Origin: a virus
Reading direction: 5' to 3' (one strand)
DNA: 36,265 nt
Virus record (IMG/VR): IMGVR_UViG_3300045921_000132
Coordinates: 1 to 36,265 of that record
Below are positions 10,664 to 36,265 of this stretch, piece by piece. The position numbers and the translations under genes are program-made. The notes under the pieces were generated by a model that was not told the origin of the DNA, searched no databases, and saw nothing but the letters and a program-made list of their open reading frames with translations. How positions within the stretch are numbered: the first letter of the stretch is position 1; every line of letters begins with the position of its first letter.

Positions 10664-10672
10664 GTCACGACC

Positions 10673-11008: not shown

Positions 11009-11343
11009 TTTTTTGTCCGCGCCTCATGGTAGGCGGCCATGTACTGCTGGTAAATCTCGCCGCCGGCGGCGGGGTAGCGGTCCAGCAGCGCCGCGAAGGC
11101 CTCGGCCGAGAACTGCACGGGTTGATCGTGCTCGTCGACCACGCCGGCGCGCCAGCCCTTGACCACCTCGCCGAGGAAATCCGGGTCGCTGCGCTCTGCG
11201 CCGGACTCCACCCACGCGCGCAGCTCGCTTTTGCTCTTGCGCGCGAAGACGAAGATGACCACCGCCGGCTCGGGTGAGCCGGCGACGGTGAGCTTGACCG
11301 GCGCGTCGAACGTGGCGGCCGGCACCAGTCGCAGCGCGCCCAT
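11005..11343 (-). CDS. Tail assembly chaperone (G-like)
   Basis: A 112-residue protein (MGALRLVPAATFDAPVKLTV...) between the tail tube gene and the tape measure, the fixed place for the first tail assembly chaperone. Its ATG overlaps the tube-protein stop. It ends at a TGA immediately after the slippery heptamer at 11014-11008. Most ribosomes should make this short form; a fraction should shift to make the G-T fusion. The C-terminal part (EIYQQYMAAYHEARTKN) is helical and charged. Confidence 0.85.
   Translation of the reverse strand: MGALRLVPAATFDAPVKLTVAGSPEPAVVIFVFARKSKSELRAWVESGAERSDPDFLGEVVKGWRAGVVDEHDQPVQFSAEAFAALLDRYPAAGGEIYQQYMAAYHEARTKN
11008..11014 (-). promoter_or_regulatory. Programmed -1 frameshift slippery site A-AAA-AAC
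   Basis: On the minus strand the G-like gene ends ACA AAA AAC TGA. The heptamer A AAA AAC fits the X XXY YYZ rule in the correct zero frame and sits directly before the stop. A slip by one base backwards continues as CTG AGG GCG into the long T-like frame. Position and geometry match the lambda G/GT frameshift. Confidence 0.88.
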
Positions 11344-11993
11344 CAGCTGCCGTACAGCATGGGTTGCGCGGCGAAGTTGAGCGTGATGTCCGTCGTCAGC
11401 ACGCCATCACGCACGCTGGGCACGTCGTTGAGGCCCCAGTACGCATTGCCGTTGAGCCTGGCGCCGTTGGGGAAGATCATGCGCAAGGCGGCCGGGGTTT
11501 TGCTGTCGCGCGCGGCGCGCACGGGGCCCAGGAACGACTGCACTGGGTCGTAGTACACGGGCAGCGTCAGCGTGATTGGCGTACGAGTGGTTGGCAGCGC
11601 GATCTCGTCCTCTTGGCTGAGGAGCCGAATGGTCGTGTACTGCTGCTCACCGCCGCTGGACGAGATCTCCTGCGCGATCTGGCTGAGCGCCGTCCAAGTC
11701 GAGATCTTGCGCACGCTGCCAACGCCGCCGCCGGGTGGGAACTGCGCGGTGTTGGAGGTGTTGAGGCCCTCGATCGTCACGTCGTTGGTGTTGACCGCGC
11801 TGACACGCATGACGCGGTTGTCAACCTTGGGCCAGCCGCTCTTGATCTCGATGATGTCGCCGACCACGATGCCATGCGACGCCTCCAGCGTGGCCACTGC
11901 ATTGGTGGCGTTGGACAGCGCGGTCATGTTCTTGGAGGGGCCGTAGGCGCTGGCGATGGAAACCGCGGTGCCTGAGGCGAGGATGAAGGCCAT
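11343..11993 (-). CDS. Major tail (tube) protein
   Basis: A 216-residue protein (MAFILASGTAVSIASAYGPS) with the beta-rich, Thr/Asn/Gly-rich composition of siphophage tube proteins such as lambda gpV (Phage_tail_3 type). LPVYYDPVQSFLGPVRAA and RMIFPNGARLNGNAYW are typical tube-protein segments. The ATG has AGGAG eight bases upstream. It would polymerise around the tape measure to form the tail tube. Order (tail terminator, tube, chaperones, tape measure) supports the call. Confidence 0.88.
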   Translation of the reverse strand: MAFILASGTAVSIASAYGPSKNMTALSNATNAVATLEASHGIVVGDIIEIKSGWPKVDNRVMRVSAVNTNDVTIEGLNTSNTAQFPPGGGVGSVRKISTWTALSQIAQEISSSGGEQQYTTIRLLSQEDEIALPTTRTPITLTLPVYYDPVQSFLGPVRAARDSKTPAALRMIFPNGARLNGNAYWGLNDVPSVRDGVLTTDITLNFAAQPMLYGS

Positions 11994-12019
11994 GATGTTT
12001 GCTCCTGTGGTGGGGGTGG

Positions 12020-12457
12020 TCAGGCGGCGAGCAAATCGCCTCCGGTGAGGTGGGTCACGCGCAGCACCAGGTCAACCAGCGTGACGGTGTTGTCTGCCTC
12101 CTCGACATCCCATCGGATGTCGGGCTGCAGCTGCCACCGCATGACGCCGTTGGGCGGCTGCGTGGTGGACAGGCGCTCGAACACGGCCGCGAGCAGCGCA
12201 TCGGGCGCCTGGATGCCGTGCACGCCGGGTGCAGCGCGCACGCGCAGCCGCAGGCCCACCAGGCTGGTCCAGCGCACGGTGCCGCCGTCCAGCGTGATGG
12301 CCTGGCCGCGGCTGCTGTCCAGCACCACGTCGATCGCATGCGGCCAAGTCGCCGGCATGGCCACCTCGCGGCCGATGCGCACGCGCCCGGGCGCTATGGC
12401 AGGCGGCTGCGCCAGGGCGGTCACGACGGCCTGCGGGATTTGGAGGAACGCGGTCAC
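12020..12457 (-). CDS. Tail terminator-like protein (lambda U position)
   Basis: A 145-residue protein starting at a GTG (12457-12455) with GAGG eight bases upstream. Composition is mixed alpha/beta (VVTALAQPPAIAPGRVRIG, then WDVEEADNTVTLVDLVLRVTHL). It sits between the head-tail joining protein and the tube protein, where gpU-type terminators lie. Fold-level identity is not visible by eye, so the role is inferred from order and size. Confidence 0.65.
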   Translation of the reverse strand: MTAFLQIPQAVVTALAQPPAIAPGRVRIGREVAMPATWPHAIDVVLDSSRGQAITLDGGTVRWTSLVGLRLRVRAAPGVHGIQAPDALLAAVFERLSTTQPPNGVMRWQLQPDIRWDVEEADNTVTLVDLVLRVTHLTGGDLLAA

Positions 12458-12471
12458 GGCGGTGTCCTCGG

Positions 12472-12741
12472 TCAGGCGTTGGTGAGCAGCAGCACCGACC
12501 AGCCTGTGCCGTCCGGCAGGTGCTCGCGCACGCGGTAGCTGCCCTGGGGGATCTGCAGCACGGCGTCGAGGTAGTCGGCGGGCACGTCGGCCGTGGGCAG
12601 CTGGACCTGCGGCTCGCGCACGCTCATGCCGCCCGCGGTGTCGCCGGGGTCGTCGAAGATCACGCGCACCGGCTGCCCGGCGAGCGTGCCCTCCACGCCC
12701 CAGGCGCGCAGGTAGACGCCGAAATCCTCGACGACAGCCAC
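12472..12741 (-). CDS. Head-tail joining protein (FII-like)
   Basis: An 89-residue protein with start GTG at 12741-12739, eight bases after GGAG. The segment VRVIFDDPGDTAGGMSVREPQVQLPTAD followed by PQGSYRVREHLPDGTGWS is characteristic of lambda FII-type joining proteins, which attach the tail to the filled head. A much longer upstream open frame exists but overlaps the next gene and is low-complexity Arg/Pro, so I reject it as the start. Written in pieces: VRVIFDDPGDTAGG and QGSYRVREHLPDG. Confidence 0.72.
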   Translation of the reverse strand: MAVVEDFGVYLRAWGVEGTLAGQPVRVIFDDPGDTAGGMSVREPQVQLPTADVPADYLDAVLQIPQGSYRVREHLPDGTGWSVLLLTNA

Positions 12742-12757
12742 CGCCTGCGCTCCACGC

Positions 12758-12982
12758 TCAGGCCGCGGCCGGCGCCTCGGCCTTGGCCTTCTTGGGGGCC
12801 TGCATGGCCTTCCACGCGGCCTTGTGCTCGTCGGTGGCCAGGCGCGCGCGGCCCTGGCCGGCCAGCTCCTTGGCCAGCTCGGGGTCCACCTGCTCGATGA
12901 CCTCGCCGACCCCGACGTGGCGGCCGTCCAACTTGAACGCGTCGACGCAGACGATGTCGACGGGCTTGGCTTGCTTGTCCAT
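12758..12982 (-). CDS. Small head-region protein
   Basis: A 74-residue protein (MDKQAKPVDIVCVDAFKLDG) located between the capsid gene and the FII-like gene. It has VGVGEVIEQVDPELAKELAGQGR, a pattern like small DUF7210-type phage proteins with a short beta strand, a Gly-containing turn and a helix, then a Lys/Ala tail. It could be an FI-like packaging accessory or a completion protein. The start has a clear CAGGAG-type site upstream (rc of 12989-12994). Confidence 0.6.
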   Translation of the reverse strand: MDKQAKPVDIVCVDAFKLDGRHVGVGEVIEQVDPELAKELAGQGRARLATDEHKAAWKAMQAPKKAKAEAPAAA

Positions 12983-13007
12983 GTGCGTGTGCTCCTGTGG
13001 CTGTGGG

Positions 13008-15053
13008 TCAGGTGGTCAGCAGGTCGTCGATGCTTGAGAACGCACCGGGCTGGCGGCACAGCCAGTCAAAGAACTGGTTGAGCGTGATGCGCACCTGGCC
13101 GGTGGCGGCCAGGCTGTACGGGTCGACGGTGACGTCCAGGCCGCCGAACAGGCCCAGAACGAACATGCTCCAGTCCGCGCTGAAGACCATGCTCGAACAG
13201 ATGCCCGAGCTGCTGCCCTTGGTCAGGTTGCTCGGCACGTTGTTGGTGACCATGGCGCGGTGGCCGTTGAGGGGGAAGTCGCCGTCGTCCCAGATGAAGG
13301 GCAAATTGGCTGCCTTCTGCACCACCTTGGCCTTGCCGCGGACCTTGGTGTTGGTGAGGTAGCCGCTGCGGCTGGTGTTGACGGCGTTGGCATTGGCCGC
13401 AGCGCTCTCCAGCCCGACAACGTGGGTCCAGGCCAGCTCCGCGCCGTTGGTGCCGCCGACAACGCTGCCGATGCCCGAGACGTTGCGGATGCCGCGCGCG
13501 TTGGCACCGCTGCCGTTGCCGTTGATGCCCTGGTCCTCCATGAGGACCGCAGCGCCGTCCACCAGGTCCTGCCGCAGCATGGCCTCGATGCCGATCTCGC
13601 TCTGGATGATGGCCTGCTTGCTGGGCTCGACGTACGAGGCGACGCGCTTGGGCGTGAGCACCGGCAGCGCGGTGGTGGGCTGCGTCTCGGTGGCTGCCGC
13701 CACTTCGGTCAGCATCCCCAGGGTGCCGGCCACGGTCTTGCGCGGCACGGCCAGATTGCCGCGCAGGCCCGGCAGCACGGTGCAGCCGGCCTGCATTAGC
13801 ACCAGGGCCGGGCGCAGCACGTCGGTCCACATGGCGGCGTCCACCGTGGTCTGCACGAGGTTACCGGCCTGGTTCGCGGTGCCGACGTTGAAGTCGCGCT
13901 TCTCACCGGGTTCGCGGCCGTGCAGGTCGCTGAACATCACGTCGGCGGGGACGAAGATGCCCTCGGCCTCGCGGCCGGTCATCTTGGCGATGGCCTGGCT
14001 GACCTCGCGCTCGAATCCGGCGTCGACGCTGGGGCCGTGGCCCTGCATCTGGGCCTGGATCGCGCGCATGAAGCTGTACCGCCGCGCCTCCTTCGGCGTG
14101 GCGCCGATGCCGGCCAGCGTGGTGGCGTCGGTGGCGCTGGTCTTCAGGCGCTGGAGGATCAAGTCGTGGAAGCGCTCGGCGTCGGCGCCGTTGGCGATGG
14201 CGTCGCCCACGTCGGTGGGCTTGAGCCACTCGCCGTATTCGCGCGCCAGGCGCTGGATGGTCTCGACGTTCTTGCGGAACGCGGCGTCGCCCTGCACGGG
14301 CGCTTGGGTCGTGGTTTCCATGGTGTGCTCCATGCGGGGGGTTGCGGGGACAGTGGCGCGCTGTGGCGCCGGCGGGGTGATCGCGTCCTCGACCATGCGG
14401 CCGAGGCCGACGGTCATGTCCGCGGGGATGCTCACGAGCGACACCTCAAGCGGGCGCCACGCTGTGACGCGGTACGTCGGGACGTCGTCTTCCTTCTTGA
14501 TCAGCTCGAGCTCGTCGATCTCGTAGCCGACGCTGACGTTGACGCGGATGTCGTCCTGCGCCTCGGCCATCTGCTCTTCGGCCAGCGCGGTGCGGCCGAA
14601 GCGCGCGACGCAGCGGTTCTTCCGCGTCTGCGGATCAAGCCAGGCGCGGCTGATGACGCCGATCTGCTGGTCGCTGCGGTGGTTGTTGAGGAACGGCGCG
14701 CGACCGCTGGCCACCCAGCTCAGATCGCACTCGCCGCGGTCGTGGCCCAGGATCTCCACGCCCCACCAGCGCTCGTAAGGCTCCTCGGAGGAGAAGCTGA
14801 ACTCGACCTCGCGGGTCTGCTCATCGACGCGCTTGCCGCGCAGGCTGGTGCTGGTGTACTCCACCAGCGGCGGGGCGTCGTCGTGTGCCGCGCGCTGGGC
14901 GTGGTCGCCGTCGGCCGGCTCGACACGGCCGCGCAGCACATCGGCCAGGCGCAGACGCTGGCCGGGCTGCAACCGGGCGAGAGCCTCCTGCAGCCGCTGG
15001 CGCGCTGGCGAGTCCTCGCGCGTCCAGTAGCCGTGGCTGGCGTGTGCGCTCAT
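13008..15053 (-). CDS. HK97-type prohead protease fused to major capsid protein
   Basis: A 681-residue protein. Residues about 65-220 match an HK97-family prohead protease: FLNNHRSDQQIG (His125), VNVSVGYEID (Ser174) and PLEVSLVSIPAD are its hallmark motifs. Residues about 245-340 are a helical delta/scaffold-like region, and 340-681 an HK97-fold capsid (LVQTTVDAAMW, RGNLAVPRKTVAGTLGML, IEAMLRQDLVDG). Protease should cut the delta region during maturation. The ATG (15053-15051) overlaps the portal stop. An in-frame ATG at 14321 preceded by GGAG six bases upstream could make capsid protein alone (437 aa). Fusions of this kind are known in phages but are a minority arrangement. Confidence 0.9.
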   Translation of the reverse strand: MSAHASHGYWTREDSPARQRLQEALARLQPGQRLRLADVLRGRVEPADGDHAQRAAHDDAPPLVEYTSTSLRGKRVDEQTREVEFSFSSEEPYERWWGVEILGHDRGECDLSWVASGRAPFLNNHRSDQQIGVISRAWLDPQTRKNRCVARFGRTALAEEQMAEAQDDIRVNVSVGYEIDELELIKKEDDVPTYRVTAWRPLEVSLVSIPADMTVGLGRMVEDAITPPAPQRATVPATPRMEHTMETTTQAPVQGDAAFRKNVETIQRLAREYGEWLKPTDVGDAIANGADAERFHDLILQRLKTSATDATTLAGIGATPKEARRYSFMRAIQAQMQGHGPSVDAGFEREVSQAIAKMTGREAEGIFVPADVMFSDLHGREPGEKRDFNVGTANQAGNLVQTTVDAAMWTDVLRPALVLMQAGCTVLPGLRGNLAVPRKTVAGTLGMLTEVAAATETQPTTALPVLTPKRVASYVEPSKQAIIQSEIGIEAMLRQDLVDGAAVLMEDQGINGNGSGANARGIRNVSGIGSVVGGTNGAELAWTHVVGLESAAANANAVNTSRSGYLTNTKVRGKAKVVQKAANLPFIWDDGDFPLNGHRAMVTNNVPSNLTKGSSSGICSSMVFSADWSMFVLGLFGGLDVTVDPYSLAATGQVRITLNQFFDWLCRQPGAFSSIDDLLTT

Positions 15054-27834: not shown

Positions 27835-28002
27835 GGTGGCCAATCATAGGCATCGGATGCTCGCCATGGATTGAATCTTTCCTATGGCGACGCGGAGCGT
27901 GATAGAAAAAATTGTGTTTACACCTGCAGTCGCATGGGCATCATCGGCACCATCGCACCATTGGGCGCCTCGCCGGAGGCGGGTGGCGCGGGAGGAACGA
28001 CG
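27835..28002. promoter_or_regulatory. Divergent intergenic region with a GTGT-TT-ACAC dyad
   Basis: This region lies between the leftward small gene and the rightward operon, so it should hold divergent control signals. GTGTTTACAC at 27914-27923 has four-base inverted arms and lies in the most AT-rich part (GATAGAAAAAATTGTGTTTACA). It could bind a regulator such as the Cro-like protein. I cannot assign a convincing -35/-10 pair in either direction. Confidence 0.35.
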
Positions 28003-28317
28003 ATGGACTCGGTGCGCATCAAGGGCTACGTTTACGCCGACGAAGACACGTATGGCCTTTATGGGCCAGCCGGCAGTGTGCGGTACTTTGTGCTTGACGA
28101 ACCAGATCGGGATGCAACCGTCTGGGGCGTTTGCCTCGGCCCCGTTGAGTTCGATTTCCGACCCGGCCAAAACATCAAGGCTGCGGTGCTGAACGCGAAG
28201 ATCGGCGCGCTTGAAGACGAGAAGACGCGCATCCACAAGGAGTTCGCGGCGCGCATGGCCCAAATCAACAACAAGATTGCCGAGCTGCAGGCGATCCCGA
28301 TGGGGGAGCAGGCATGA
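28003..28317 (+). CDS. Hypothetical early protein with coiled coil
   Basis: A 104-residue protein starting MDSVRIKGYVYADEDTYGLY. GGAGG lies seven bases before the ATG. The N-terminal half is beta-rich and the C-terminal half is a coiled coil (LNAKIGALEDEKTRIHKEFA). It is the first gene of the rightward operon, and its stop overlaps the next start. The family is not recognised. Confidence 0.6.
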   Translation: MDSVRIKGYVYADEDTYGLYGPAGSVRYFVLDEPDRDATVWGVCLGPVEFDFRPGQNIKAAVLNAKIGALEDEKTRIHKEFAARMAQINNKIAELQAIPMGEQA

Positions 28318-28736
28318 GCGGTCTCACCCCCACCGAAATCATCGCCAGCCTCACTCGGCGGCACAGCCACGACGGGTACACCAGCTATCCCGAGCTGTGC
28401 CGCGCCTACGAGGCGCAGATCAGCCGCATGGGCGCCGAGCTGGCGCAGTACACCGGCGCCGCCCTGACGCCGCAGGCCGGGTGCGCGCTGCTGCGCACCA
28501 CATGGGACCAGGCCCCGGTCGTGGTGGAGCTCGAGATCCAGCCTGAGGAAGGCGACGGCTGGTATCTGCCGCACTACCCCGAGCGAGTCGAGGTGGTCGG
28601 CGTGCTCGTCAACGGGCGCATGTGCCGCGCCTCGATCGCAGACGACGAGACCCGCGAGCGCTGGGTCGATGAGTTCATCGCCGAGCGCCGGGCCGAGCGC
28701 GACGAGGCGTTGATCGCGACGCGGGAGGCGGCATGA
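28314..28736 (+). CDS. Hypothetical protein, 140 aa
   Basis: Starts at an ATG overlapping the previous stop (ATGA) and its own stop overlaps the next ATG. The protein begins MSGLTPTEIIASLTRRHSHD and ends with a charged helix (WVDEFIAERRAERDEALIAT). It has an acidic middle (VVVELEIQPEEGDGWYLP). No motif or membrane segment is visible. It is probably an early phage accessory gene. Confidence 0.6.
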   Translation: MSGLTPTEIIASLTRRHSHDGYTSYPELCRAYEAQISRMGAELAQYTGAALTPQAGCALLRTTWDQAPVVVELEIQPEEGDGWYLPHYPERVEVVGVLVNGRMCRASIADDETRERWVDEFIAERRAERDEALIATREAA

Positions 28737-28975
28737 GCCAATACACCAGCGACCGCGTCGCCAAGCTCGTGCGCACGCGCACGGGCATCGTCATCGGCGG
28801 CGCCTACGTGCCGCCGCCGCCGAGGCCGAGCGAGGATGCCGAGCGCATCCAGGCCGCGCTGCTGCACCGCGACCAGGTGCAGCGCACCGGCCGCATCGCC
28901 GACGCCGTGATCGTGGCACTTGGGGTGCTGCTGCTGGTCGCGCTGGCGGTGCATCTGGCGGCGATGTATTTCTGA
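28733..28975 (+). CDS. Small single-span membrane protein
   Basis: An 80-residue protein with a polar N-terminal part containing [14 protein letters not shown] and a C-terminal membrane segment ([20 protein letters not shown]). Topology is probably N-in with a very short tail outside. It is translationally coupled to the previous gene by an ATGA overlap. Function unknown. Confidence 0.55.
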
Positions 28976-28991
28976 TCGCACAACGCGGACG

Positions 28992-29741
28992 ATGATGGCC
29001 GAGAAAGTAGTGATCGGTAACGCGGAACTGTGGCACGGTGATTTCCGCGACGTAGCAGACATCTGCGGATTTGGCAATGTGCCGTTTGATGCGGCTATTG
29101 TTTCTGACCCTCCCTACAGCAGCGGAGGATTTCAAGAAGCCGGCAAGGGCAGTGGATCGATTGGCAGCACGGTAACGCACACCATACACGGCGACACCTA
29201 CAGCACGCGCGGTTATCTTCGGCTGATTCGCAGCGTGGGCCAGATTTTTCGCGTGGCCGAGTGCTACCTTTTCACGGACTGGCGCATGTGGCCTTATACG
29301 GTTGACGCTGTCGAAGACGCTGGTTTTCGAGTGCGCAACATGATCGTGTGGAACAAGCTGTACGGTGCGATGGGTGTCAAGTGGCGTAGCCAGCACGAGC
29401 TTGTGTGCTGGGGAGCGCGGGGAACGCTGAAAGCTGGTCCGGGAACCGGCAATGTGCTCAACGTGGCACGCAGTGGGAACACTCACCACCCGACAGAAAA
29501 GCCGGTGAGTGTGATGCGCGAACTAGTGAAGGCTTGCGACCGCCCACTCATCATCGACCCGTTCATGGGCAGCGGAACCACTGGCGTTGCTGCCGTTCTT
29601 GAAGGGCGGCGATTTGTCGGCGTGGAGATTGAACGCAAGCACTTCGACAGCGCTTGCGCCCGTATTGAGAACGCCTACGCCCAGGGCCAGCTACTGCCGC
29701 CCGAAGAACCGAGACAGCCTGTGCAAGAGGGTCTTCTGTGA
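28992..29741 (+). CDS. DNA adenine/cytosine-N4 methyltransferase
   Basis: A 249-residue protein with catalytic motif IV DPPY (residues 39-42) in the context [10 protein letters not shown] and the SAM-binding motif FMGSGTTG (191-198) near the C-terminus. That order makes it a beta-class N6-adenine/N4-cytosine enzyme. [10 protein letters not shown] in between is the usual motif before motif I. No partner nuclease is present, so it is an orphan enzyme that could protect phage DNA. Codon use is less GC-rich than the neighbours, suggesting later acquisition. It starts at 28992 (ATGATG); the next ATG at 28995 is equally possible. Confidence 0.9.
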
Positions 29742-30121
29742 AATCTAACCTCAACAACTCCCCCGCCGGCCCCGTGTCCGAGGCCGACCTGGACCGCGCG
29801 ATCGCGCGCATGACGCCGCGCCGCGAATACCGCAGCGAGCGCCACGCGGCGCTGCACGCGCAGGAGTTCGCCGACACGTACCCGACGCGTGAGCCCTTCC
29901 TGTACGGCTCCCCGGCCGAGGTGCGGCGCACCGGCTACGCGGCCTGCGTCACGAATCGCTGCGCCAGCGGGCGGCGCCGGCCGTGCCCGACGCCGGATGC
30001 GTGTTGGCTGCCCGAGGATGACGCACGGTTCGGCGCGCTTGAGGGCCTGCTGTCATGGCCGGCGCTGGTCAGCGTCGTCTTGGTCGCGCTGTGCGCCGCA
30101 GCGGTGGTGGTGTGGCTGTGA
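29738..30121 (+). CDS. Hypothetical membrane-anchored protein
   Basis: A 127-residue protein that starts at GTG overlapping the methyltransferase stop (GTGA). It has a C-terminal membrane segment ([18 protein letters not shown]) and a central cysteine pair region ([20 protein letters not shown]). The N-terminal half is Arg/Glu-rich. Its own stop overlaps the exonuclease start. The function is not recognised. Confidence 0.55.
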
Positions 30122-31032
30122 CGCAAGATCGCGCCCAGTGGCTGGCGCAGAGAGCCACAGGGATCGGAGGCTCGGACGTCGCCGCCATGCTGGGGATCTC
30201 GAAGTGGAAGACGCCCCTGCAGCTGTACCTTGAGAAGCGCGGCGAAGCCCCTCCGCAGTCCGACAACGACGCCATGCGCTGGGGCCGCTACCTCGAGCCC
30301 GTCGTGCGGCAGGCCTACGCCGACGAAACCGGCTACGAGGTCCGCGTGCTCAACCAGCTGCTGCGGCATCCGCGGCATGAGTTCATGGTCGCGAATCTCG
30401 ACGGATTCGTGCTGCCGTCGGACGGCCCGCGCCGTGTGTTCGAGGCCAAGACCGCGCGCACGGCAGAGGGCTGGGGCGATCCGCGCAGTGACGAGATACC
30501 GCAGGCCTACTACCTGCAGGTGCAGCACTACCTGGAGGTGACGGGATTCGAGGTGGCCGACGTCGCCGTGCTGATCGGCGGCGCCGACTTCCGCATCTAC
30601 GAGGTGCCGGCCGATCGGGAGCTGCAACAGATGATCGTCGACGCCTGCGCCGACTTCTGGCAGCGCGTCCAGCGGGGCGAGCCGCCCGAGCCGGTGAGCT
30701 ACGCCGACGTGCAGGCCCGCTGGGGGCGCGCGTCCAAGGCCAGCGTCGTGGTGGCCGACGACGAGGTGCTGCACGCGCTGTCGCAGTTGCGCGATCTGCG
30801 CAAGCAGGCCAAGTACCTGGAGGCGGCCGAGGAAGAGTGGAAGGCCGTGGTGATGCGGGCGATGGGCGATCACGACACGCTGGTCGACGCATCGGGGCAG
30901 ACGCTGTGCACGTGGAAAGCCGCCGCGGCACCGCAGCGCTTCGACGTGCAGGCGTTCAAAGCGCAGCACCCCGACCTGTACGCGCAATTCGTGAAGGCCG
31001 GCGAGCCGTCGCGCCGATTCGTGCTCAAGTGA
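30118..31032 (+). CDS. YqaJ-like phage recombination exonuclease
   Basis: A 304-residue protein with the YqaJ pattern: GIGGSDVAAMLGISKW near the start, GRYLEPVVRQAY (Glu60), ANLDGFVLP (Asp95), FEAKTA (Glu109, Lys111) and QAYYLQVQHYLEVTG. These form the metal-dependent nuclease core of lambda-exonuclease-type enzymes. It would chew DNA ends to expose 3' single strands. The GTG at 30118 overlaps the previous stop. It is followed by the annealing-protein gene, the usual two-gene recombination arrangement. Confidence 0.92.
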   Translation: MTQDRAQWLAQRATGIGGSDVAAMLGISKWKTPLQLYLEKRGEAPPQSDNDAMRWGRYLEPVVRQAYADETGYEVRVLNQLLRHPRHEFMVANLDGFVLPSDGPRRVFEAKTARTAEGWGDPRSDEIPQAYYLQVQHYLEVTGFEVADVAVLIGGADFRIYEVPADRELQQMIVDACADFWQRVQRGEPPEPVSYADVQARWGRASKASVVVADDEVLHALSQLRDLRKQAKYLEAAEEEWKAVVMRAMGDHDTLVDASGQTLCTWKAAAAPQRFDVQAFKAQHPDLYAQFVKAGEPSRRFVLK

Positions 31033-31047
31033 CAACGGAGGCCATAG

Positions 31048-32001
31048 ATGACCGACACCACCCCGACGCCGCGCGCTGCCAACCCATTCGGCGATGCGCA
31101 GATCGCCGCACGGCCTGGCAGCAACGCCGTCGCCCAGTCCGACCAGCAGCGCGCCATCGCCGAGGTGCAGGCTGCCATGATGATCGCGAGGATGAACCCG
31201 CGCGATCCGATCGCGGCGATGGACCGCATCCTCAACGCCTGCACGCGCCCGACGCTGGCGAACGCGGCCGTCTACACCTACAGCCGCGGCGGCAGCGACA
31301 TCAGCGGCCCTTCGATTCGTCTCGCCGAGGCGATCGCGCAGGCGTGGGGCAACATGCAGTTCGGCATCCGCGAGCTCGACCAGCGCAACGGCGAGAGCAC
31401 GGTGCAGGCGTTCGCGTGGGACGTCGAGACCAACACGCGGCGCGAGGTGACGTTCCAAGTGCCGCACGTCCGCTACACCAAGGACGGCGCGCGGCGGCTC
31501 GTGGATCCGCGCGACATCTACGAGATGGTCGCCAATCAGGGAGCGCGCCGGCTGCGAGCCTGCATCCTCGGCGTCATTCCTGGCGACGTCGTCGAGGCCG
31601 CCGTCACGCAGTGCGAGACGACCATGCACGCGACGGCCGACACGAGTGCAGAGGCCATGCGCAAGCTGGTCGAGGCCTTCGGTCAGTTCGGCGTCACGCG
31701 CGAGCAGATCGAGCGGCGCATCCAGCGCAGGCTGGACGCGATCCAGCCTGCGCAGGTCGTCACGCTGCGCAAGATCTACGCGAGCCTGCGCGACGGCATG
31801 AGCGCCGCAGCGGACTGGTTTGAGCCTCTTGACACGCCGCAGGCGACCGGCACGCAAGAGCCAGCCGGCGCCGCCGACAGGCTCAAGTCGGCGCTGCGAC
31901 AGCGTGCCGCCGCGGCCAGGGCAACGGCACCTGCCGAGGCGCAGCGGCACGACCCTGCGCCGTCCAAGGCCGCCGCCGATGCGGCCGGTGACGAGGCATG
32001 A
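31048..32001 (+). CDS. Putative single-strand annealing protein (RecT/Erf-type)
   Basis: A 317-residue protein starting six bases after GGAGG. The core (about residues 25-200) includes AEVQAAMMIARMNPRD, YSRGGSDISGPSIRLAEAIA and EVTFQVPHVRYTKDGARRL, followed by NQGARRLRACILGVIPGDVV, a family often paired with YqaJ nucleases in phages. The C-terminal about 80 residues are Ala/Pro-rich and likely disordered, as in annealing proteins that bind SSB-like partners. The assignment rests on gene pairing and general similarity. The stop codon overlaps the first csf gene (ATGATG). Confidence 0.7.
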   Translation: MTDTTPTPRAANPFGDAQIAARPGSNAVAQSDQQRAIAEVQAAMMIARMNPRDPIAAMDRILNACTRPTLANAAVYTYSRGGSDISGPSIRLAEAIAQAWGNMQFGIRELDQRNGESTVQAFAWDVETNTRREVTFQVPHVRYTKDGARRLVDPRDIYEMVANQGARRLRACILGVIPGDVVEAAVTQCETTMHATADTSAEAMRKLVEAFGQFGVTREQIERRIQRRLDAIQPAQVVTLRKIYASLRDGMSAAADWFEPLDTPQATGTQEPAGAADRLKSALRQRAAAARATAPAEAQRHDPAPSKAAADAAGDEA

Positions 32002-33131
32002 TGGCCCCGAGCCCGCGCAGCGCCGCCAGGCATGCCTTGGCCGCCGCCATGGGCGTGGCCAGCGGCGCCGGCTGCCGCTGTTTCGTCTGTGGCAGCTCGC
32101 CGTACGACTCGGCCGGCAAATGGCGCAAGGCGCTGGGCGCGGGCTTCTCCGATTGGGACTGCTGCGTCGATCGAGAGGCCGACGACGTGTGCACAGGCTG
32201 CCTGCGCCTGCTCTCCGGCCGTCCTGGAGACGACCCGCCGCCGCTGCGCACGCTGACCGTCGCCGTGATCGGCGGTCGGCTGGTCACGCCCGCATGGGCC
32301 GACGTCTGGTCTCTGCTGATCGCGCCCCCCGATGACCTCCAAGTCCTGTCGTGGGCGGTGAGCCGCCAGAAGCACCATGTGCTGTACGCCGAGCCTTGCA
32401 CGCCGGCCGTGCTGCGCATCGGGTCCGACGCCGGGACCATTGACGTGCGCCCTCGACGCGACGCGCCATTGTACGCCGCCGTGCTGGCCCTGCGAGCCGG
32501 TGACGACAAGGGCCGCGCTTGGTTCTCTCGCGACGAGATCCTCTCCGGGCACTACTCCACCACCAAGATCGCCGCCCGCAGCGCGGCCGCCTGGGCCGAG
32601 GCCGAGGCGGTCATCGCGCCGCGGCGCGGAGACCCGGCCCTGCAAATCATCGTCGCCCACGCCCCCGTCACGATCTCCACCACGACCACGGAGCCACCCA
32701 TGATCGACCCCACCGACGAGCGCGCGATCGAGCTGCTGCTTGCGCTGTGCCAGTCCTCCGAGGCGCGCACGAAAGACGGCCTCACCTTCTGGCAGGCGCT
32801 GCTCCCACGGCGCGTGCAGCGCCACAGCGGGCGCGGGATCGAGGCGTTTTGCGCCTACATGATGGCCGACCTCGCCGTGCCTCCCAGCAGCCCAGGCGGC
32901 ATCGCCGTCGCGCAGTACGCCGCAAGCATCGCGCGTGACGACGCCGTCGCCGTGATGCGCCGCATGCGCGAGCGCCCGTCGCTGCTCATCGCGCTGGCCT
33001 ATGACCGGCACAAGGCCGCCACCGCAGCCCGCCGTCAGCGCGCCAAGGCCGCCCCGCTGTCGGCAGACGAGCCGCCGCAGGACACGCAGACGACCATGTT
33101 CGACGTAGTGGAGACCCACCATGACCTCTGA
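31998..33131 (+). CDS. csf1: Csf1-like type IV large subunit with C-terminal Cas11-like domain
   Basis: A 377-residue protein. The N-terminus has two zinc-binding cysteine pairs (Cys28-x2-Cys31 in CRCFVCG and Cys65-x2-Cys68 in CTGCLRLLSG), the mark of Csf1-type large subunits. Residues about 85-234 are mixed alpha/beta (VAVIGGRLVTPAWADVW, QVLSWAVSRQKHHVLY). After residue 234 an in-frame ATG with GGAG starts a 143-residue all-helical part. Full-length Csf1 proteins are usually about 200-250 residues, which fits the first part alone. The ATG overlaps the annealing-protein stop, and the gene overlaps csf2 by 11 bases. Zinc finger, size and context make Csf1 likely; a search is needed to confirm. 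Confidence 0.75.
   Translation: MMAPSPRSAARHALAAAMGVASGAGCRCFVCGSSPYDSAGKWRKALGAGFSDWDCCVDREADDVCTGCLRLLSGRPGDDPPPLRTLTVAVIGGRLVTPAWADVWSLLIAPPDDLQVLSWAVSRQKHHVLYAEPCTPAVLRIGSDAGTIDVRPRRDAPLYAAVLALRAGDDKGRAWFSRDEILSGHYSTTKIAARSAAAWAEAEAVIAPRRGDPALQIIVAHAPVTISTTTTEPPMIDPTDERAIELLLALCQSSEARTKDGLTFWQALLPRRVQRHSGRGIEAFCAYMMADLAVPPSSPGGIAVAQYAASIARDDAVAVMRRMRERPSLLIALAYDRHKAATAARRQRAKAAPLSADEPPQDTQTTMFDVVETHHDL
32700..33131 (+). CDS. Possible internal product: Cas11-like small subunit
   Basis: An in-frame ATG at 32700 is preceded by GGAG (32690-32693) with six bases between. The resulting 143-residue protein (MIDPTDERAIELLLALCQSS) is almost entirely helical, with Arg-rich helices (ALLPRRVQRHSGRG, AVAVMRRMRERPSLL) and a disordered tail. 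Size and composition match Cas11 small subunits, which line the effector next to the target strand. Internal Cas11 starts inside large-subunit genes are established for several type I systems. Whether this start is used here is inference. Confidence 0.55.
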   Translation: MIDPTDERAIELLLALCQSSEARTKDGLTFWQALLPRRVQRHSGRGIEAFCAYMMADLAVPPSSPGGIAVAQYAASIARDDAVAVMRRMRERPSLLIALAYDRHKAATAARRQRAKAAPLSADEPPQDTQTTMFDVVETHHDL

Positions 33132-34023
33132 CCTGACCATGCCGCAATCCCGCGTGCGCGCGCCGAAGAACATGACGCCATACCGCGTCGTCATCACCAC
33201 CGAAGCGCCGCTGCACCACGGCGCATTCGGCGCCGACTCCGGCAACGCGGTGGCCTTCCGGCGCATCGCTCTGGCGATGCGCCCGGACTCCGCCGGCGTG
33301 CCCGCCATCAGCGGCAACGCGCTGCGCGGCTGCCTGCGCCGCATCGTCATGCGCGACCTGCTGATGCGCTGCGGTCTGACCGTGGCCACCTACGCTGAGC
33401 ACGGCCTGAGCTCCCAGCAGTGGGACAAGCTCTACGCCGCGCTGGCCAATGGCGGCCATCTGGAGGGGTCCGAGACGCGCACCGACCCCAAGCGCACCCG
33501 CGAGATCCGCGATGCGCTGCCCGCGCTGTCCGTGTTCGGCGCCGCGCTGTACACCTGGATGCTGCCGGGCGTCGTGTCGATCGGGTGGCTGTACCCGCGC
33601 TGCACCGAGACGGTTGAGTCCGCGCTGGTGCCGGCCGACCTCGCGGTCGACGCGCCGCTGGTGCCCGGCGAGACCCTGCTGACCGACGTATCGCTGGTGC
33701 GTCACGTCGACCGCGACGAGCAGGACCCGCAGTCCAGCGGCGTTACGCCCATGCCGGTGACCGTCGAGGCCCTGCTGCCAGGCACAACGCTGGTCACCAC
33801 CATCGTGCCCATGCGCAGCATCTACGACGTGGAGCTCGGCGTGCTCGGCTACGCCCTGTCGCTGCTGCGCACGCTCGGCGGCAAGACCGGATCCGGTTTC
33901 GGTCGGCTGCGCGTCGAGCACGGCATCCCTGCCGAGCCGTACACGGCATGGCTGGAGGATCCTCAGCGCATCAACGCCGCGCGCGCCGCGCTGATCTCGA
34001 TCGCGCAGGCGGCGGGGAGATAG
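33121..34023 (+). CDS. csf2: Csf2 (Cas7-like) type IV backbone protein
   Basis: A 300-residue RAMP-superfamily protein. APLHHGAFGADSGNAVAFRR (about 29-48) and AISGNALRGCLRR (62-74) match the first strand, loop and helix of Cas7 proteins in type III and IV, where an I-x-G-x-x-L-R-G pattern is nearly invariant. The C-terminus has the glycine-rich loop GGKTGSGFGRL (253-263). Several copies would polymerise along the guide RNA. Asp39 lies where type III Cas7 has its target-cleaving Asp. The ATG overlaps the csf1 stop; csf3 follows three bases after the stop. Confidence 0.85.
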   Translation: MTSDLTMPQSRVRAPKNMTPYRVVITTEAPLHHGAFGADSGNAVAFRRIALAMRPDSAGVPAISGNALRGCLRRIVMRDLLMRCGLTVATYAEHGLSSQQWDKLYAALANGGHLEGSETRTDPKRTREIRDALPALSVFGAALYTWMLPGVVSIGWLYPRCTETVESALVPADLAVDAPLVPGETLLTDVSLVRHVDRDEQDPQSSGVTPMPVTVEALLPGTTLVTTIVPMRSIYDVELGVLGYALSLLRTLGGKTGSGFGRLRVEHGIPAEPYTAWLEDPQRINAARAALISIAQAAGR

Positions 34024-34026
34024 GCC

Positions 34027-34836
34027 GTGCCAGTCGTGCTGCTGACAGCGCACGTGGCCGCGCCCATCGTGGTCGACGACGAGCTGCATCTGGACGGGCT
34101 GCTGGAGACGGCGCACCCCAACTCCCGACAGGTGCCCGTGTCGCGCACGACGAGGCTCGAGGACCTGCCGACCGTGCCCATACCCATCTGCTCGCACTCT
34201 CTAAACGGGGTCACGGCGCGCCTGTGCACGTCGATGCGCCTGCCAGACGAAGCCCGCATGGTCCGATCGCACGTCGTCAAGCGCCGCGACGGAGAGGACA
34301 TCGAGGCGCTGGCCAACGGCGTGAATCTGGGGCTTGGGCCCGGCAAGAACCGCATGCAGGCGCTGACGACGATCGTCACTCCATACGTGCAGTGGGCCGC
34401 AATCGGCGATCGCCGCGAACTGCTGCGGCTGGCGCGCCGGGTGCTGTTCGTCGGCTCCTGGCGCAGCGCCGGCTACGGGCTGGTGACCGGCTGGAGCGCC
34501 GAATACCTGGACGCCGACCCCACCACCGTGCTGGTGGCCGACGGCGTCGCGCAGCGCCACCTGCCGGCGTCATGGTGCGCGTGGCACGAGGGCACCGTCA
34601 CGGGCCCGATCAGGCCGCCTTACTGGCACCCGGCGCGCCAGACCGAGACCATTGTCCGCGCAGGCACACGCTGCGCGCTCAAACCCACCGTGGAGGCCGC
34701 ATGCCATGCCGTTGCTGACCCAGCTGCGCTCCGAGCACACCGCGAACGCAAAGTCGCGCGTGCGGGCCCTCGCAGCGCTGGCGCATACCCGCCGCATGTC
34801 GATGCTGGTGGACCACGCACTGCGGGTCATCCATGA
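34027..34836 (+). CDS. csf3: Csf3 (Cas5-like) type IV protein, with C-terminal overrun into cysH
   Basis: A 269-residue protein starting at GTG, seven bases after GGGGAG. It begins with a RAMP-like strand (VVLLTAHVAAPIVVDDELHL) and has the glycine-rich stretch LGLGPGKNRMQAL (101-113) and a second loop GSWRSAGYGLVTGW (143-156) as in Csf3/Cas5 proteins, then RPPYWHPARQ. It would cap the 5' end of the guide. The core looks complete by about residue 218. The remaining about 43 residues overlap cysH in another frame and are low-complexity, suggesting a lost stop codon. Confidence 0.72.
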   Translation: MPVVLLTAHVAAPIVVDDELHLDGLLETAHPNSRQVPVSRTTRLEDLPTVPIPICSHSLNGVTARLCTSMRLPDEARMVRSHVVKRRDGEDIEALANGVNLGLGPGKNRMQALTTIVTPYVQWAAIGDRRELLRLARRVLFVGSWRSAGYGLVTGWSAEYLDADPTTVLVADGVAQRHLPASWCAWHEGTVTGPIRPPYWHPARQTETIVRAGTRCALKPTVEAACHAVADPAALRAHRERKVARAGPRSAGAYPPHVDAGGPRTAGHP

Positions 34837-35482
34837 CTGGCGGTCGCGGTGCCAGCGGCCAGCCGTCTCGTGCAGCGGCGGCAAGGATTCCACCGCGCTG
34901 CTGCTGCTGACCATGCGCATCGACCCTACCATCCCCGTCTACCGCGCCGACCCGCCCAACCCGTTGCCGGACCGCGCGGCGCACGTGGACCTCATGGCCC
35001 GCGCTGCGGCTCAGGCCGACTGGCGCATCGTGCCGTACCAATGGGACGTCGAGGCCGTCCTGGACGGCCGAGAGCCCTACCCTGCGCTGCTCAAGATCAG
35101 GCGGCTGGAGGAGCGCCTGCGCGCCGACGGCATCGATGGCGTGGCACTGGGCCTGCGGGCGCAGGAGAGCCGCGGGCGCGCGTGGAACCTCATCACGCGG
35201 GGCGAGCACTACGTCGCCAACGGTCGGCGCGTGTGCACCCCGCTGGCACAGTGGACCGCCGACGAGGTGGTCGGCTTCGTGCTGGCCGAGGACCGGCTGC
35301 CGCTGAACCCCGTCTACACCAAGCTTGAGGGCTTGGGCGACCTCAACCGCGTGCGCGACGGCACTTGGTACCCGCGCGAGACGCCAGACGCCCACGGTTA
35401 CAGGAATTGGCTGGCGCTGCACTACCCCGAAGTTCTGCCCTTGTACGACCGCGCCGTCGCCATTGGCGCGCAGACCAGATGA
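34706..35482 (+). CDS. CysH-like PP-loop protein associated with type IV-B
   Basis: A 258-residue protein of the PAPS-reductase/N-type ATP pyrophosphatase family. SCSGGKDSTALLLL carries an intact PP-loop (SGGKDS, 57-62); GLRAQESRGR (149-158) and PLAQWTADEVVGFV (179-192) are the later family motifs. The reductase C-terminal ECGLH cysteine is absent, so it is unlikely to reduce PAPS and may instead activate a substrate with ATP, as DndC-type enzymes do. CysH-like genes are a hallmark of type IV-B loci, with unknown role. GGAGG lies nine bases before the chosen ATG; upstream in-frame starts lie within csf3. Confidence 0.88.
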   Translation: MPLLTQLRSEHTANAKSRVRALAALAHTRRMSMLVDHALRVIHDWRSRCQRPAVSCSGGKDSTALLLLTMRIDPTIPVYRADPPNPLPDRAAHVDLMARAAAQADWRIVPYQWDVEAVLDGREPYPALLKIRRLEERLRADGIDGVALGLRAQESRGRAWNLITRGEHYVANGRRVCTPLAQWTADEVVGFVLAEDRLPLNPVYTKLEGLGDLNRVRDGTWYPRETPDAHGYRNWLALHYPEVLPLYDRAVAIGAQTR

Positions 35483-36108
35483 CCGCCATGCCATCTTCAC
35501 ACGTAGCCGTGCTGTTCGCGCGGCACGACAGCGGCTACAAGACCATGCCAGACGTGGACGTCTGGGACAAGAACCGCGACGCCATGACGTACAAGGGCGA
35601 GCTGCCCGTGGTCGCGCATCCGCCCTGCACGAGGTGGTCGCTGATCAACGGCGTTGTGTTGTCTCGCTACGCGCACAAGGCGGCCGAGTTTGCATGGGGC
35701 AACGACGGCGGCACTTTCGCGTTTGCGTTGGCGACGGTGCGCCGCGTCGGCGGCGTCCTCGAGCATCCAGCCAGCAGCCGCGCGTGGGCGCATTTCGGCC
35801 TCCCGCGCCGCGGCCGAGCCCCGGACCAGTGGGGCGGGTGGACAGTCGAGGTGCGGCAGTGCGACTGGGGCCACCGCGCCGAGAAACGCACCTGGCTATA
35901 CATCGTCGGCGCCGGGCCTGACGACCTGCCGCCCATGCCCGCGCCGCGCCAGCATTCGGCCGTCGTCGTGCGCATGCCCGAGTGCAGGACCGTCAAGATC
36001 ATGGGCAAGGCCGAGCGAGAGCACACGCCGCCGGCGTTTCGCGCCTGGTTGGTGGAGCTGGCCAGGCGCTGCAAAGCTCCGCGCTCAGCAGCAACGCGCA
36101 GCGCCTGA
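35479..36108 (+). CDS. Small cytosine-methylase-like phage protein
   Basis: A 209-residue protein whose ATG overlaps the cysH stop (ATGA). VVAHPPCTRWSL (44-55) resembles motif IV of C5 cytosine methyltransferases, with the catalytic Pro-Cys, and GVLEHPASSRAW (92-103) resembles motif VI. No SAM-binding motif I is visible at the N-terminus, so this is either a reduced, partner-dependent or non-catalytic relative; phages carry many such proteins. Coupling to cysH places it in the same operon as the type IV genes. The C-terminus is basic. Confidence 0.65.
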   Translation: MTAMPSSHVAVLFARHDSGYKTMPDVDVWDKNRDAMTYKGELPVVAHPPCTRWSLINGVVLSRYAHKAAEFAWGNDGGTFAFALATVRRVGGVLEHPASSRAWAHFGLPRRGRAPDQWGGWTVEVRQCDWGHRAEKRTWLYIVGAGPDDLPPMPAPRQHSAVVVRMPECRTVKIMGKAEREHTPPAFRAWLVELARRCKAPRSAATRSA

Positions 36109-36137
36109 CGCCAAGTTCAACATTCAAGGACCAGACG

Positions 36138-36265
36138 ATGACGATCGAACAAACGCCGGCCGCAGTCGGCTCGGACGCACAGTTAGGCGCTGCCGCCGAA
36201 GCGCGCGACGCGGCCCCCCACCACCACAATTGCCGCCCCGCGCTGCTGGTACAGAGCCCCGACAA
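36138..36265 (+). CDS. Start of a further rightward gene, cut by the window edge
   Basis: An ATG at 36138 with AAGGA eight bases upstream opens a frame that stays open to the edge (42 codons: MTIEQTPAAVGSDAQLGAAA...). It has a PHHHNC segment. The 29 bases between the previous stop and this start show only the ribosome binding site. The product cannot be identified from this fragment. Confidence 0.5.
   Translation, partial: MTIEQTPAAVGSDAQLGAAAEARDAAPHHHNCRPALLVQSPD

Follow-up and report, generated by a model that had tools for sequence, protein, structure and literature searches.

The published type IV-B CRISPR complex comes from a megaplasmid. According to the part of PMC7937560 available to us, this ribonucleoprotein assembles on non-CRISPR RNAs that are heterogeneous but regular in length, crRNAs were not enriched in it, and a role as an RNA sponge was proposed for type IV-B. 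The accessible text of PMC8175902 holds against the sponge idea that CysH is left without a role, and proposes a role in AMPylation. In the literature searched, including the available parts of PMC11656645, PMC8175902 and PMC7937560, no measured function of any type IV-B system was found. As far as the accessible text of PMC11656645 goes, type IV systems take part in the competition between elements, and this paper together with the available part of PMC10848311 reports them in prophages as well as in several lytic phages and an archaeal virus.

Here, we describe a type IV-B cassette in viral DNA of 36,265 nucleotides (IMG/VR record IMGVR_UViG_3300045921_000132), the whole of which is called the window in the following. 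The original prediction, made from the sequence alone, had noted that type IV loci are best known from plasmids. A viral copy is not new, as virus-borne type IV-B was already published (available parts of PMC10848311 and PMC11656645) and relatives of csf2 were found in 41 IMG/VR records. Viral type IV-B is thus already known; the fusion of Csf1 with Cas11 is the variant here.

The cassette and its phage

The window comes from a genuine tailed phage and encodes TerL (phrog_15, 7e-186), a major head protein (4e-114), the central tail fibre J (2e-32) and an endolysin (1e-69). A near-identical, overlapping contig of the same phage (L001) contains about 2.5 kb present only there, and together with the 36.3 kb of the window the genome apparently amounts to less than 40 kb. 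The host is presumably bacterial, to judge from the hosts given in INPHARED for relatives of phrog_3657. Another phage contig (L002) encodes four cassette proteins that are 60-76% identical to those of the window.

The cassette consists of four overlapping or abutting genes on the plus strand: a csf1-cas11 fusion (31998-33131, 377 aa; PADLOC Csf1_0_IV, 6.6e-14), csf2/cas7 (33121-34023, 300 aa; Csf2_0_IV, 2.2e-35), csf3/cas5 (34027-34836, 269 aa, GTG start; Csf3_0_IV, 4.8e-27) and a gene for a CysH-like PP-loop protein (34706-35482; PAPS_reduct, PF01507, 3.8e-13). All four assignments of the original prediction and their order at 31998-35482 were therefore confirmed, and the start-stop overlaps that it had placed at both ends of the cassette are read as ATGA at 31998-32001 and 35479-35482. 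The NCBIfam type IV models TIGR03114/5/6 score far under their cut-offs (16.4, 22.7 and 20.3 against 140, 130 and 140 bits), so the cassette proteins are divergent members of type IV. For the 300-aa protein, a single-sequence search matched Cas7/RAMP proteins and placed Cas7c of PDB entry 11fs (1.5e-9) ahead of Csf2 of 7jhy (3.1e-6), which speaks against its identity as a type IV-B Csf2; a profile built from seven sequences, five of them plasmid copies, reversed this order, with 7jhy_e at 1.6e-51.

Csf1, Csf2 (Cas7) and Csf3 (Cas5) are all present, Cas11 forms the C-terminal domain of Csf1 instead of being encoded by a separate gene, and the adjoining PP-loop gene lacks the reductase cysteine. 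The large subunit is Csf1 and not of the HD-Cas10-like type (IV-C), and among the scanned operon proteins there was no match to HD (IV-C), DinG (IV-A) or Cas6. No pair of 20-nt repeats at a spacing of 48-89 nt was found in the window, L001 or L002, a scan in which any match was seen for two of the 42 loci with csf genes and for 12 of the 79 controls, and a repeat search of window positions 28000-36265 and L001 positions 9300-14000 returned no CRISPR array. Gene set, families and folds agree, and the identity of the cassette as an array-less type IV-B system, as originally labelled, is close to certain.

The first gene product had been described as a zinc finger plus a helical domain. More exactly, hhalign, AF2 modelling and VIA comparison identify a Csf1-Cas11 fusion. 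Its Csf1 part carries two CxxC pairs (C28/C31 and C65/C68) whose cysteines are invariant in seven Csf1 sequences. In the AF2 model of the 377-aa protein (pLDDT 90.8), residues 6-225 match type IV-A Csf1 of 8rc3_G with a VIA Z score of 12.2, and the Csf1 domain matches type IV-A 7xg1 with Z 11.2. Residues 231-346 superimpose on type IV-B Cas11 of 7jhy_g with Z 10.9 (3.0 Å over 110 residues, 24% identity), where VIA warns that Z values below about 13 can be due to chance for helical bundles, and unrelated matches on the Cas11 part reach at most 4.8. By hhalign, the fusion and Cas11 pair at 95%, and every other family pair tested stays at or below 6.9%. The Cas11 domain (residues 231-351; 32688-33050, plus strand) is all-helical in the model.

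In Class 1 systems of types I-B, I-C and I-D, Cas11 is produced from within the gene of the large subunit. A possible internal start is located in the fusion at residue 235 (ATG at 32700-32702, plus strand), with GGAG 6 nt upstream. An ATG is found at the Cas11 boundary of all four fused genes, each preceded by a Shine-Dalgarno-like match of 4-5 nt; in two of these loci (L105 and L089) it is the sole in-frame ATG or GTG with such a match of at least 5 nt, and in the window and L002 no in-frame start reaches a 5-nt match. Because this internal ATG recurs in four of four lineages, free Cas11 may be made from it in addition to the fusion. The idea that the fusion fixes the ratio of Csf1 to Cas11 subunits was dropped, as the candidate internal start argues against it. 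No Csf1-Cas11 fusion was found in the type IV literature searched, the coverage of which is incomplete and includes the accessible parts of PMC8175902 and PMC11519345, and no report of an internal Cas11 start in type IV was found in the literature searched, again partly accessible; a csf1-csf3 fusion is named in the available text of PMC8175902. In the locus described here, a single gene encodes both large and small subunit and contains a possible internal start that is conserved.

The open reading frames of the cassette do not occur by chance, as follows from the protein identities to L002 and from pN/pS values, window against L002, of 0.56 for csf1, 0.43 for csf2, 0.61 for csf3 and 0.33 for cysH. 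Judged by these ratios, the cassette is under purifying selection. The rarity of the fused csf1-cas11 form, of which four lineages were found, would fit cargo that is decaying and at present serves the phage no function; with all four frames intact in the window, L001 and L002 and all pN/pS values below 1, however, such decay is extremely unlikely.

The cysH frame is open from a TTG at 34652 (276 aa), and the likelier start is the ATG at 34706, which has GGAG upstream and from which the gene shares 131 bp with csf3 in a different frame. The SGGKDS motif is present and invariant in six aligned sequences, including plasmid type IV-B CysH and the protein of L002 (3129-3956). The C-terminal cysteine motif ECGxH was not seen in the CysH-like protein of the window, which in the alignment has no C-terminal cysteine. 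With 76% identity between window and L002 and the lowest pN/pS, cysH shows the strongest conservation within the cassette. This conservation, the retained SGGKDS motif and the AMPylation role proposed in the accessible part of PMC8175902 would suit a modification or signalling system centred on CysH, in which the ribonucleoprotein mainly positions the PP-loop enzyme and this adenylylates RNA, DNA or protein. Yet in L098, L099, L111 and L113/L114 csf1, csf2 and csf3 were detected but CysH was not, while in the remaining loci without cysH the cluster is cut by the contig end. We consider a CysH-centred function improbable.

Genomic surroundings and distribution

Upstream of the cassette, the plus strand encodes a YqaJ/RecE-like exonuclease (30055-31032; PF09588, 1.6e-41; phrog_434, 5.1e-99) and a phrog_3657 protein (31048-32001; 2.8e-99). 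The cassette had been placed directly after an exonuclease and an annealing protein. The exonuclease is borne out by PF09588, and the putative single-strand annealing protein is named as such from its gene position: it has no Pfam match over cut-off, and hhalign against a RecT profile of only two sequences gives 0.3-0.6%. Among the best 80 of 163 phrog_3657 relatives in IMG/VR, 43 have a relative of the window's YqaJ upstream. Downstream of the cassette follows a phrog_12600 / methyltransferase-like gene (35479-36108, plus strand; phrog_12600, 1.4e-62; phrog_757, 1.4e-4). It is missing from L001, where cysH joins the next gene directly, and hence lies outside the cassette. Csf genes were present near phrog_3657 in one of the same 80 loci, a contig of the same phage, within the stretch retrieved. 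This low frequency and the different gene after cysH at the ATGA junction of window and L001 indicate that the cassette is exchangeable cargo.

From the synteny, a role in phage replication, recombination or attack on rival elements had been suggested. As an accessory of replication or recombination, the ribonucleoprotein would work with the exonuclease and the annealing protein on R-loops, annealing or origin control. The ATGA coupling within the operon favours this, as do five other loci with recombination or repair genes close to csf1 (YqaJ-RecT in L095, YqaJ in L102, DUF3799-phrog_3657 in L113, RusA in L105, DNA ligase in L089), those having a Csf2 tip being scattered over the Csf2 tree. 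Against it, 79 of the 80 phrog_3657 loci had no csf gene in the retrieved stretch. Moreover, the synteny argument fails when the unrelated vipr gene is used as a control: among the families listed, 107 proteins upstream of csf1 included RusA three times and RecT, YqaJ and SSB once each, and 122 proteins upstream of vipr included YqaJ and ERF five times each and RecT and RusA twice each, where genes below 90 aa were dropped. Of the families, 49 and 43 in number, the first 25 each were listed, so that families with a single member are undercounted in both tallies. The csf tally covers 35 of 41 loci (L093, L096, L114, L121, L123 and L127 omitted), that is, 34 considered without the window's own phage and 32 giving proteins; it misses the YqaJ of L095 and the DUF3799 of L113, which the gene calling lost, as well as L089's DNA ligase, which falls outside the listed families. 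The vipr tally comprises 40 loci considered and 39 giving proteins, not dereplicated. As recombination families are at least as frequent upstream of vipr, closeness to recombination genes is not specific to csf loci; other accessory systems sit there too, and it is by itself no evidence of a recombination role. Such a role was rejected as a conclusion from synteny, and as an explanation of the cassette it is very unlikely. Early expression of the cassette is the safer inference.

With respect to other replicons, none of the 26 plasmid records that match csf2 reaches 60% identity; csf1 gave no tblastn match in PLSDB at 0.01, neither csf1 nor csf2 matched INPHARED, and the csf2 and csf1 profiles yielded no confirmed relative in GTDB genome contigs. 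As the pattern scans depend on short stretches of conservation, divergent copies can escape them. The Csf2 tree has 39 viral and plasmid tips, without type IV-A or IV-C references; L001 is represented by the window, and L093, L096, L097 and L114 (duplicates), L105 (fragment) and L098 and L121 (filtered out) are omitted.

Proposed function

The cassette contains no guide source, and the complex therefore most likely captures RNAs present in the cell. In our proposal, the cassette products would be made early in infection, and Csf2 would form a filament on small RNAs that is capped by Csf3 and Csf1 and lined by Cas11, the latter supplied partly as the fusion and partly perhaps free from the internal start. 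The CysH-like enzyme would use ATP in a modifying step. By capturing RNAs already in the cell, either host crRNAs or the guide RNAs of rival elements, the complex would serve as an early counter-defence or competition module. Among several conceivable functions, RNA capture for these purposes is the most likely one. The entire reading, a selectively maintained array-less type IV-B cargo in an early recombination operon that captures RNAs for counter-defence or competition, has in our view about an even chance of being correct; the missing crRNA enrichment in the published complex argues against capture.

Alternatively, the complex might be an RNA-guided silencer, which receives its guide in trans from a host array or from phage RNAs and represses rival DNA like the nuclease-free type IV-A. 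In favour are the core folds, which belong to a guide-binding complex, and the match of the Csf1 part to its counterpart in the DNA-bound type IV-A complex 8rc3; the participation of type IV in inter-element competition would be in line with this. On the other hand, array, Cas6 and DinG were not found in the searches described above, and crRNA enrichment is likewise lacking in the published complex. We consider silencing rather unlikely. Together with the second RNA-guided system of the phage, described below, the locus makes the role of type IV-B testable in a small genome.

A VIPR system in the same phage

VIPR is a recently described RNA-guided system (2026 preprint PMC13142463, available in part), and the terms "type IV" and "csf" are absent from the main text of this preprint in the version accessible to us. 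At 30-448 (plus strand), the window contains GGCNN pentanucleotide tracts, in runs of 13, 11, 8, 13 and 12 units, that are predicted VIPR guide RNAs; they correspond to the 9-16 GGY/NN repeats beside vipr. Repeat runs of at least 8 units occur in 21 of 79 vipr loci as compared to 1 of 79 controls. A Vipr-like protein is encoded in L001 (11742-12521), about 1.4 kb from the end of cysH at 10362. Its AF2 model (pLDDT 85.9) has a RAMP/Cas7-like fold with a glycine-rich loop (VIA Z 9.9), and each of the 50 Foldseek matches listed is a CRISPR RAMP chain of type III/VII (lowest E value 1.8e-6). No sequence relation of Vipr to Csf2 or Csf3 was seen by hhalign (0.2-0.3%); as the comparison of Csf2 with Csf3 also fails (4.6-6.9%), sequence cannot decide on the kinship of Vipr, and structure did. 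VIPR guide RNAs are expected to have a structured 3' tail and xNN-coded DNA targets. Here, the fold z-scores were -1.02, -0.85 and -2.35, and two exact 11-unit patterns gave no target match in IMG/VR, exact matching being a harsh procedure.

VIPR and the type IV-B cassette are separate systems that lie near each other in two phages, the present one and that of L118, where the gene order is vipr, 173 aa, 215 aa, csf1. VIPR was found in 4 of 41 csf records and in 1 of 50 phrog_3657 records (50 of 79 being available), and an enrichment among type IV-B phages was dropped from consideration with such small numbers. Given the predicted VIPR guide RNAs, the lack of a guide source in the cassette may not extend to the entire phage. 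One guide economy might then serve two Cas7-type proteins, with the type IV-B complex being loaded with, or stripping, VIPR guides of the phage itself or of rivals. This is very doubtful; if true, it would explain an array-less type IV-B system among early competition genes. As the same genome encodes both type IV-B and predicted VIPR guides, the capture of guides from other systems can be addressed there.

Comparison with known systems

The cassette resembles the type IV-B systems of Mycobacterium sp. JS623 (7jhy, PMC7937560), Rhodococcus and other plasmids in comprising csf1, cas11, csf2, csf3 and a cysH-like gene and no array; in the five plasmid loci examined, however, the cas11 position is occupied by a separate gene, whereas here cas11 is fused to csf1. 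According to the available part of PMC10848311, the type IV-B locus of Fuxivirus, a virus of Bathyarchaeia, is also virus-borne, with csf1, csf2, csf3 and an adjoining cysH-like gene. Fuxivirus, however, is an archaeal virus with a mini-CRISPR array, whereas the present phage presumably infects bacteria, and the search for an array gave none. Type IV-A Csf1 (8rc3, 7xg1) shares its fold with the N-terminal domain of the fusion, but type IV-A possesses DinG and Cas6 as well as an array, and no Cas11 (accessible parts of PMC8175902 and PMC11519345). With Cas11 forming the C-terminal part of the large subunit, and with an internal start, here a predicted one, the fusion is similar to types I-B, I-C and I-D.

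Gene content and junctions of the cassette

The four genes at 31998-35482 were assigned by profile searches. csf1 (starting at 31998, 377 aa), csf2 as the second and csf3 as the third gene match PADLOC profiles (6.6e-14, 2.2e-35 and 4.8e-27, respectively), and the PAPS-reductase-like gene cysH, ending at 35482, matches PF01507 (3.8e-13). Upstream lie a YqaJ exonuclease gene (30055-31032, PF09588 1.6e-41) and then a phrog_3657 gene (31048-32001, 2.8e-99). The window is a virus record of 36,265 bases. Together with the TerL, head, tail and endolysin families of a tailed phage, these matches confirm the csf1/csf2/csf3/cysH set that the original prediction had placed in a phage. The start-stop overlaps expected at both cassette ends were read as ATGA at 31998-32001 (phrog_3657/csf1) and at 35479-35482 (3' end of cysH). 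csf1 and csf2 share 11 bp, csf3 begins 3 bp past the end of csf2, and cysH would share its first 131 bp (34706-34836) with csf3, in another frame, if ATG 34706 is its start; in a second phage contig (L002, 60-76% protein identity) both frames are likewise open across their overlap. The type IV-B identity of the cassette is supported, the Csf2 tree being one without IV-A and IV-C references. Virus-borne type IV-B is already known, and PHROGs contains unannotated phage csf-like genes, since phrog_22746 and phrog_34599, two families without known function, match csf2 (3.3e-17) and csf3 (1.3e-4).

The cassette is best read as cargo. Of 163 phrog_3657 relatives found in IMG/VR, 80 were kept; in 43 of these a relative of the window's YqaJ gene lies upstream, and csf genes were found in the stretch fetched only in the contig of the window's own phage (L001, 99.9% identity over 10.4 kb). 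In a more distant record pair (L113/L114), phrog_3657 does lie upstream of csf1. A methylase-like gene (35479-36108) is missing from L001, where cysH runs via ATGA into the following gene; exchange of genes at ATGA junctions is the simplest reading of these sequences. Between the window and L002, pN/pS is 0.56 for csf1, 0.43 for csf2, 0.61 for csf3 and 0.33 for cysH, and within csf1 the Cas11 part is the loosest (0.69, against 0.47 for the Csf1 part); these ratios are approximate because synonymous differences are high (pS 0.44-0.54).

The Csf1-Cas11 fusion

In four plasmid IV-B loci, Csf1 has 219-241 aa, and the Cas11 position is taken by a gene of its own (136-156 aa), in one locus with a small gene in between. 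The C-terminal part of the 377-aa protein (A10, four sequences) matched the Cas11 alignment at 92.9% in hhalign and at 95% with wider profiles, all other pairs of the nine-family matrix reaching at most 6.9%. The Cas11 profile in turn matches the solved IV-B Cas11 7jhy_h (3.3e-17); the C-terminal profile of four sequences, used by itself, had no CRISPR chain among its PDB matches (best 0.15). An AF2 model of the whole protein, computed from 28 viral Csf1 sequences with neither separate Cas11 proteins nor templates, reached a pLDDT of 90.8. Its best PDB chains are the IV-A Csf1 chains 8rc3_G (Z 12.2, model 6-225) and 7xg1_A (Z 11.2), followed by IV-B Cas11 7jhy_g (Z 10.9, 3.0 Å over 110 residues, 24% identity, model 231-346), another IV-A Csf1 (6.9), Cas10d (4.8) and further rows of at most 4.8. 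In Foldseek alone, the Cas11 row has an E-value of 1.2 and a probability of 0.85. Because the structure tool cautions that Z below about 13 can arise by chance for helical bundles, the Cas11 call leans on fold, profile and position jointly, and together these identify the protein as a Csf1-Cas11 fusion. The originally proposed zinc finger plus helical domain is more exactly described as this fusion.

Fused proteins occur in four lineages, namely the window with L001, L002 and the IMG/VR loci L105 and L089; a later profile scan recovered only three of them. The three with a usable Csf2 group as one clade of the Csf2 tree (support 100). TerL was detected for L001, L002 and L089; the L105 record, a fragment of 5.4 kb, gave no match.

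Some type I systems make free Cas11 from within the large-subunit gene. All four fused genes have an in-frame ATG at the Cas11 boundary (window: 32700, residue 235), preceded by GGAG in the window, AGGA in L002 and GAGGT in both L105 and L089. In the latter two, no other in-frame ATG/GTG (of 16 and 14 in all, respectively) has a Shine-Dalgarno match of at least 5 nt; none of the 20 in the window and 11 in L002 has such a match. By analogy, the fused csf1 genes may likewise yield free Cas11 from a putative internal start.

Distribution of viral type IV-B loci

csf2 relatives were found in 41 IMG/VR records including L001. Profiles detected csf1, csf2, csf3 and cysH together in 29 of these loci and a separate Cas11 in 13. 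A terminase large subunit was present in 22/41 records at E ≤0.001 (phrog_15 in 7, PF03237 in 16, one shared), or in 18/41 if PF03237 is counted solely above its cut-off. Many of these records are therefore tailed phages rather than misfiled plasmids. csf2 had no match among 50,697 INPHARED phages; matches in 26 of 72,556 plasmid records were all below 60% identity. The window, L001, L002, L089 and L105 contain no CRISPR-like repeat pair, and any repeat-pair match occurred in 2/42 csf loci versus 12/79 control loci. One protein upstream of csf1, in 1/32 IMG/VR csf loci, gave a match to the Cas6 C-terminal domain (PF01881 1.1e-17). DUF5131 (Gp37/Gp68) genes neighbour csf1 in phage L113 (L113:2772-3602, PF07505 5e-98) and, by annotation, in a Natrinema plasmid csf locus (L007:1-617).

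Recombination genes near csf1

Several other loci also have recombination or repair genes near csf1: in L095, successive overlaps link YqaJ, via RecT, three small genes and one of 184 aa, to csf1; L102 has YqaJ, L105 RusA, L089 a DNA ligase overlapping csf1, and L113 a DUF3799 nuclease followed by phrog_3657. YqaJ occurs in 6/41 csf records, in 3 of those upstream of csf1 at no more than about 2.5 kb, and RecT in 7/41, close to csf1 in 1. As a control, the proteins encoded in the 3 kb before csf1 (107, without those of the window's phage) were compared with those encoded upstream of vipr (122), the unrelated Cas7-fold gene of the RNA-guided system VIPR. Among the families listed, RusA (3), VRR_NUC (2), RecT, SSB and YqaJ (1 each) were found upstream of csf1, versus ERF and YqaJ (5 each), RecT, RusA and PDDEXK_1 (2 each), SSB and DUF3799 (1 each) upstream of vipr. 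The csf1 tally lacks the L095 YqaJ (missed by gene calls), the truncated L113 DUF3799 and the L089 ligase, which falls outside the families listed; with these added, csf is still not enriched. The neighbourhood therefore points to an early accessory region and does not support the recombination role originally read from the cassette's position.

A VIPR system in the same phage

L001 adds about 2.5 kb between the window's two ends that is absent from the window. A Mom-like DNA modification gene (L001:10768-11295, phrog_1384 2e-38) lies there between the IV-B cassette and a vipr-like gene of 259 aa (L001:11742-12521, phrog_4652); elsewhere in the phage, at window 28920-29741, an N6/N4 methylase is encoded (PF01555). 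The AF2 model of the vipr-like protein (pLDDT 85.9) resembles Csm3/Cas7: all 50 Foldseek rows listed belong to type III/VII CRISPR systems (best 1.8e-6), and structure comparison by VIA gave Z 9.9. GGCNN pentanucleotide tracts occur next to the gene (L001:13027-13450) and at window 30-448. Tracts of at least 8 units occur in 21/79 loci of the phrog_4652 family, on the strand of the gene in all listed (up to three per locus), and in 1/79 phrog_3657 loci, L069, which also has a phrog_4652 gene; there were none in the 40 csf loci other than L001 or in 5 plasmid loci. According to a 2026 preprint (PMC13142463), VIPR combines Vipr with an accessory gene and with GGY/NN guide RNAs and is used against competing phages. 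Tracts and Cas7-fold protein, first detected from sequence, match this description, so that the phage's system, with predicted guide RNAs, is a further member of this recently described kind. The window's left end falls within the tract array, and this array probably interrupted the assembly. Vipr-like genes occur in 4/41 csf records versus 1/50 controls, for which we claim no enrichment, and near csf only in L001 and L118. In L118, a second phage, a vipr-like, a 173-aa and a 215-aa gene lie directly upstream of the IV-B cassette (L118:5025-7772).

Possible function and comparison with known systems

The available parts of the literature describe the IV-B complex as assembling, Csm-like, on heterogeneous RNA (PMC7937560), and name sponge and AMPylation as proposed roles (PMC8175902). 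Beside the observed parts, fusion, selection, absence of an array and phage context, we propose that the cassette would be expressed early alongside the recombination genes, that its complex would capture RNA, and that this complex may serve counter-defence or competition. The main rival is trans-guided silencing by the IV-B complex; we place the sponge or counter-defence role first because array-less RNA binding and early phage expression then require the fewest additions.

Two features appear new with respect to the literature searched: no published Csf1-Cas11 fusion was found in a search including the available parts of PMC8175902 and PMC11519345, and no mention of IV-B and VIPR in one phage in one including that of PMC13142463. 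Whereas the plasmid IV-B loci compared here have a separate gene at the Cas11 position, the phage described here encodes a single 377-aa protein instead.
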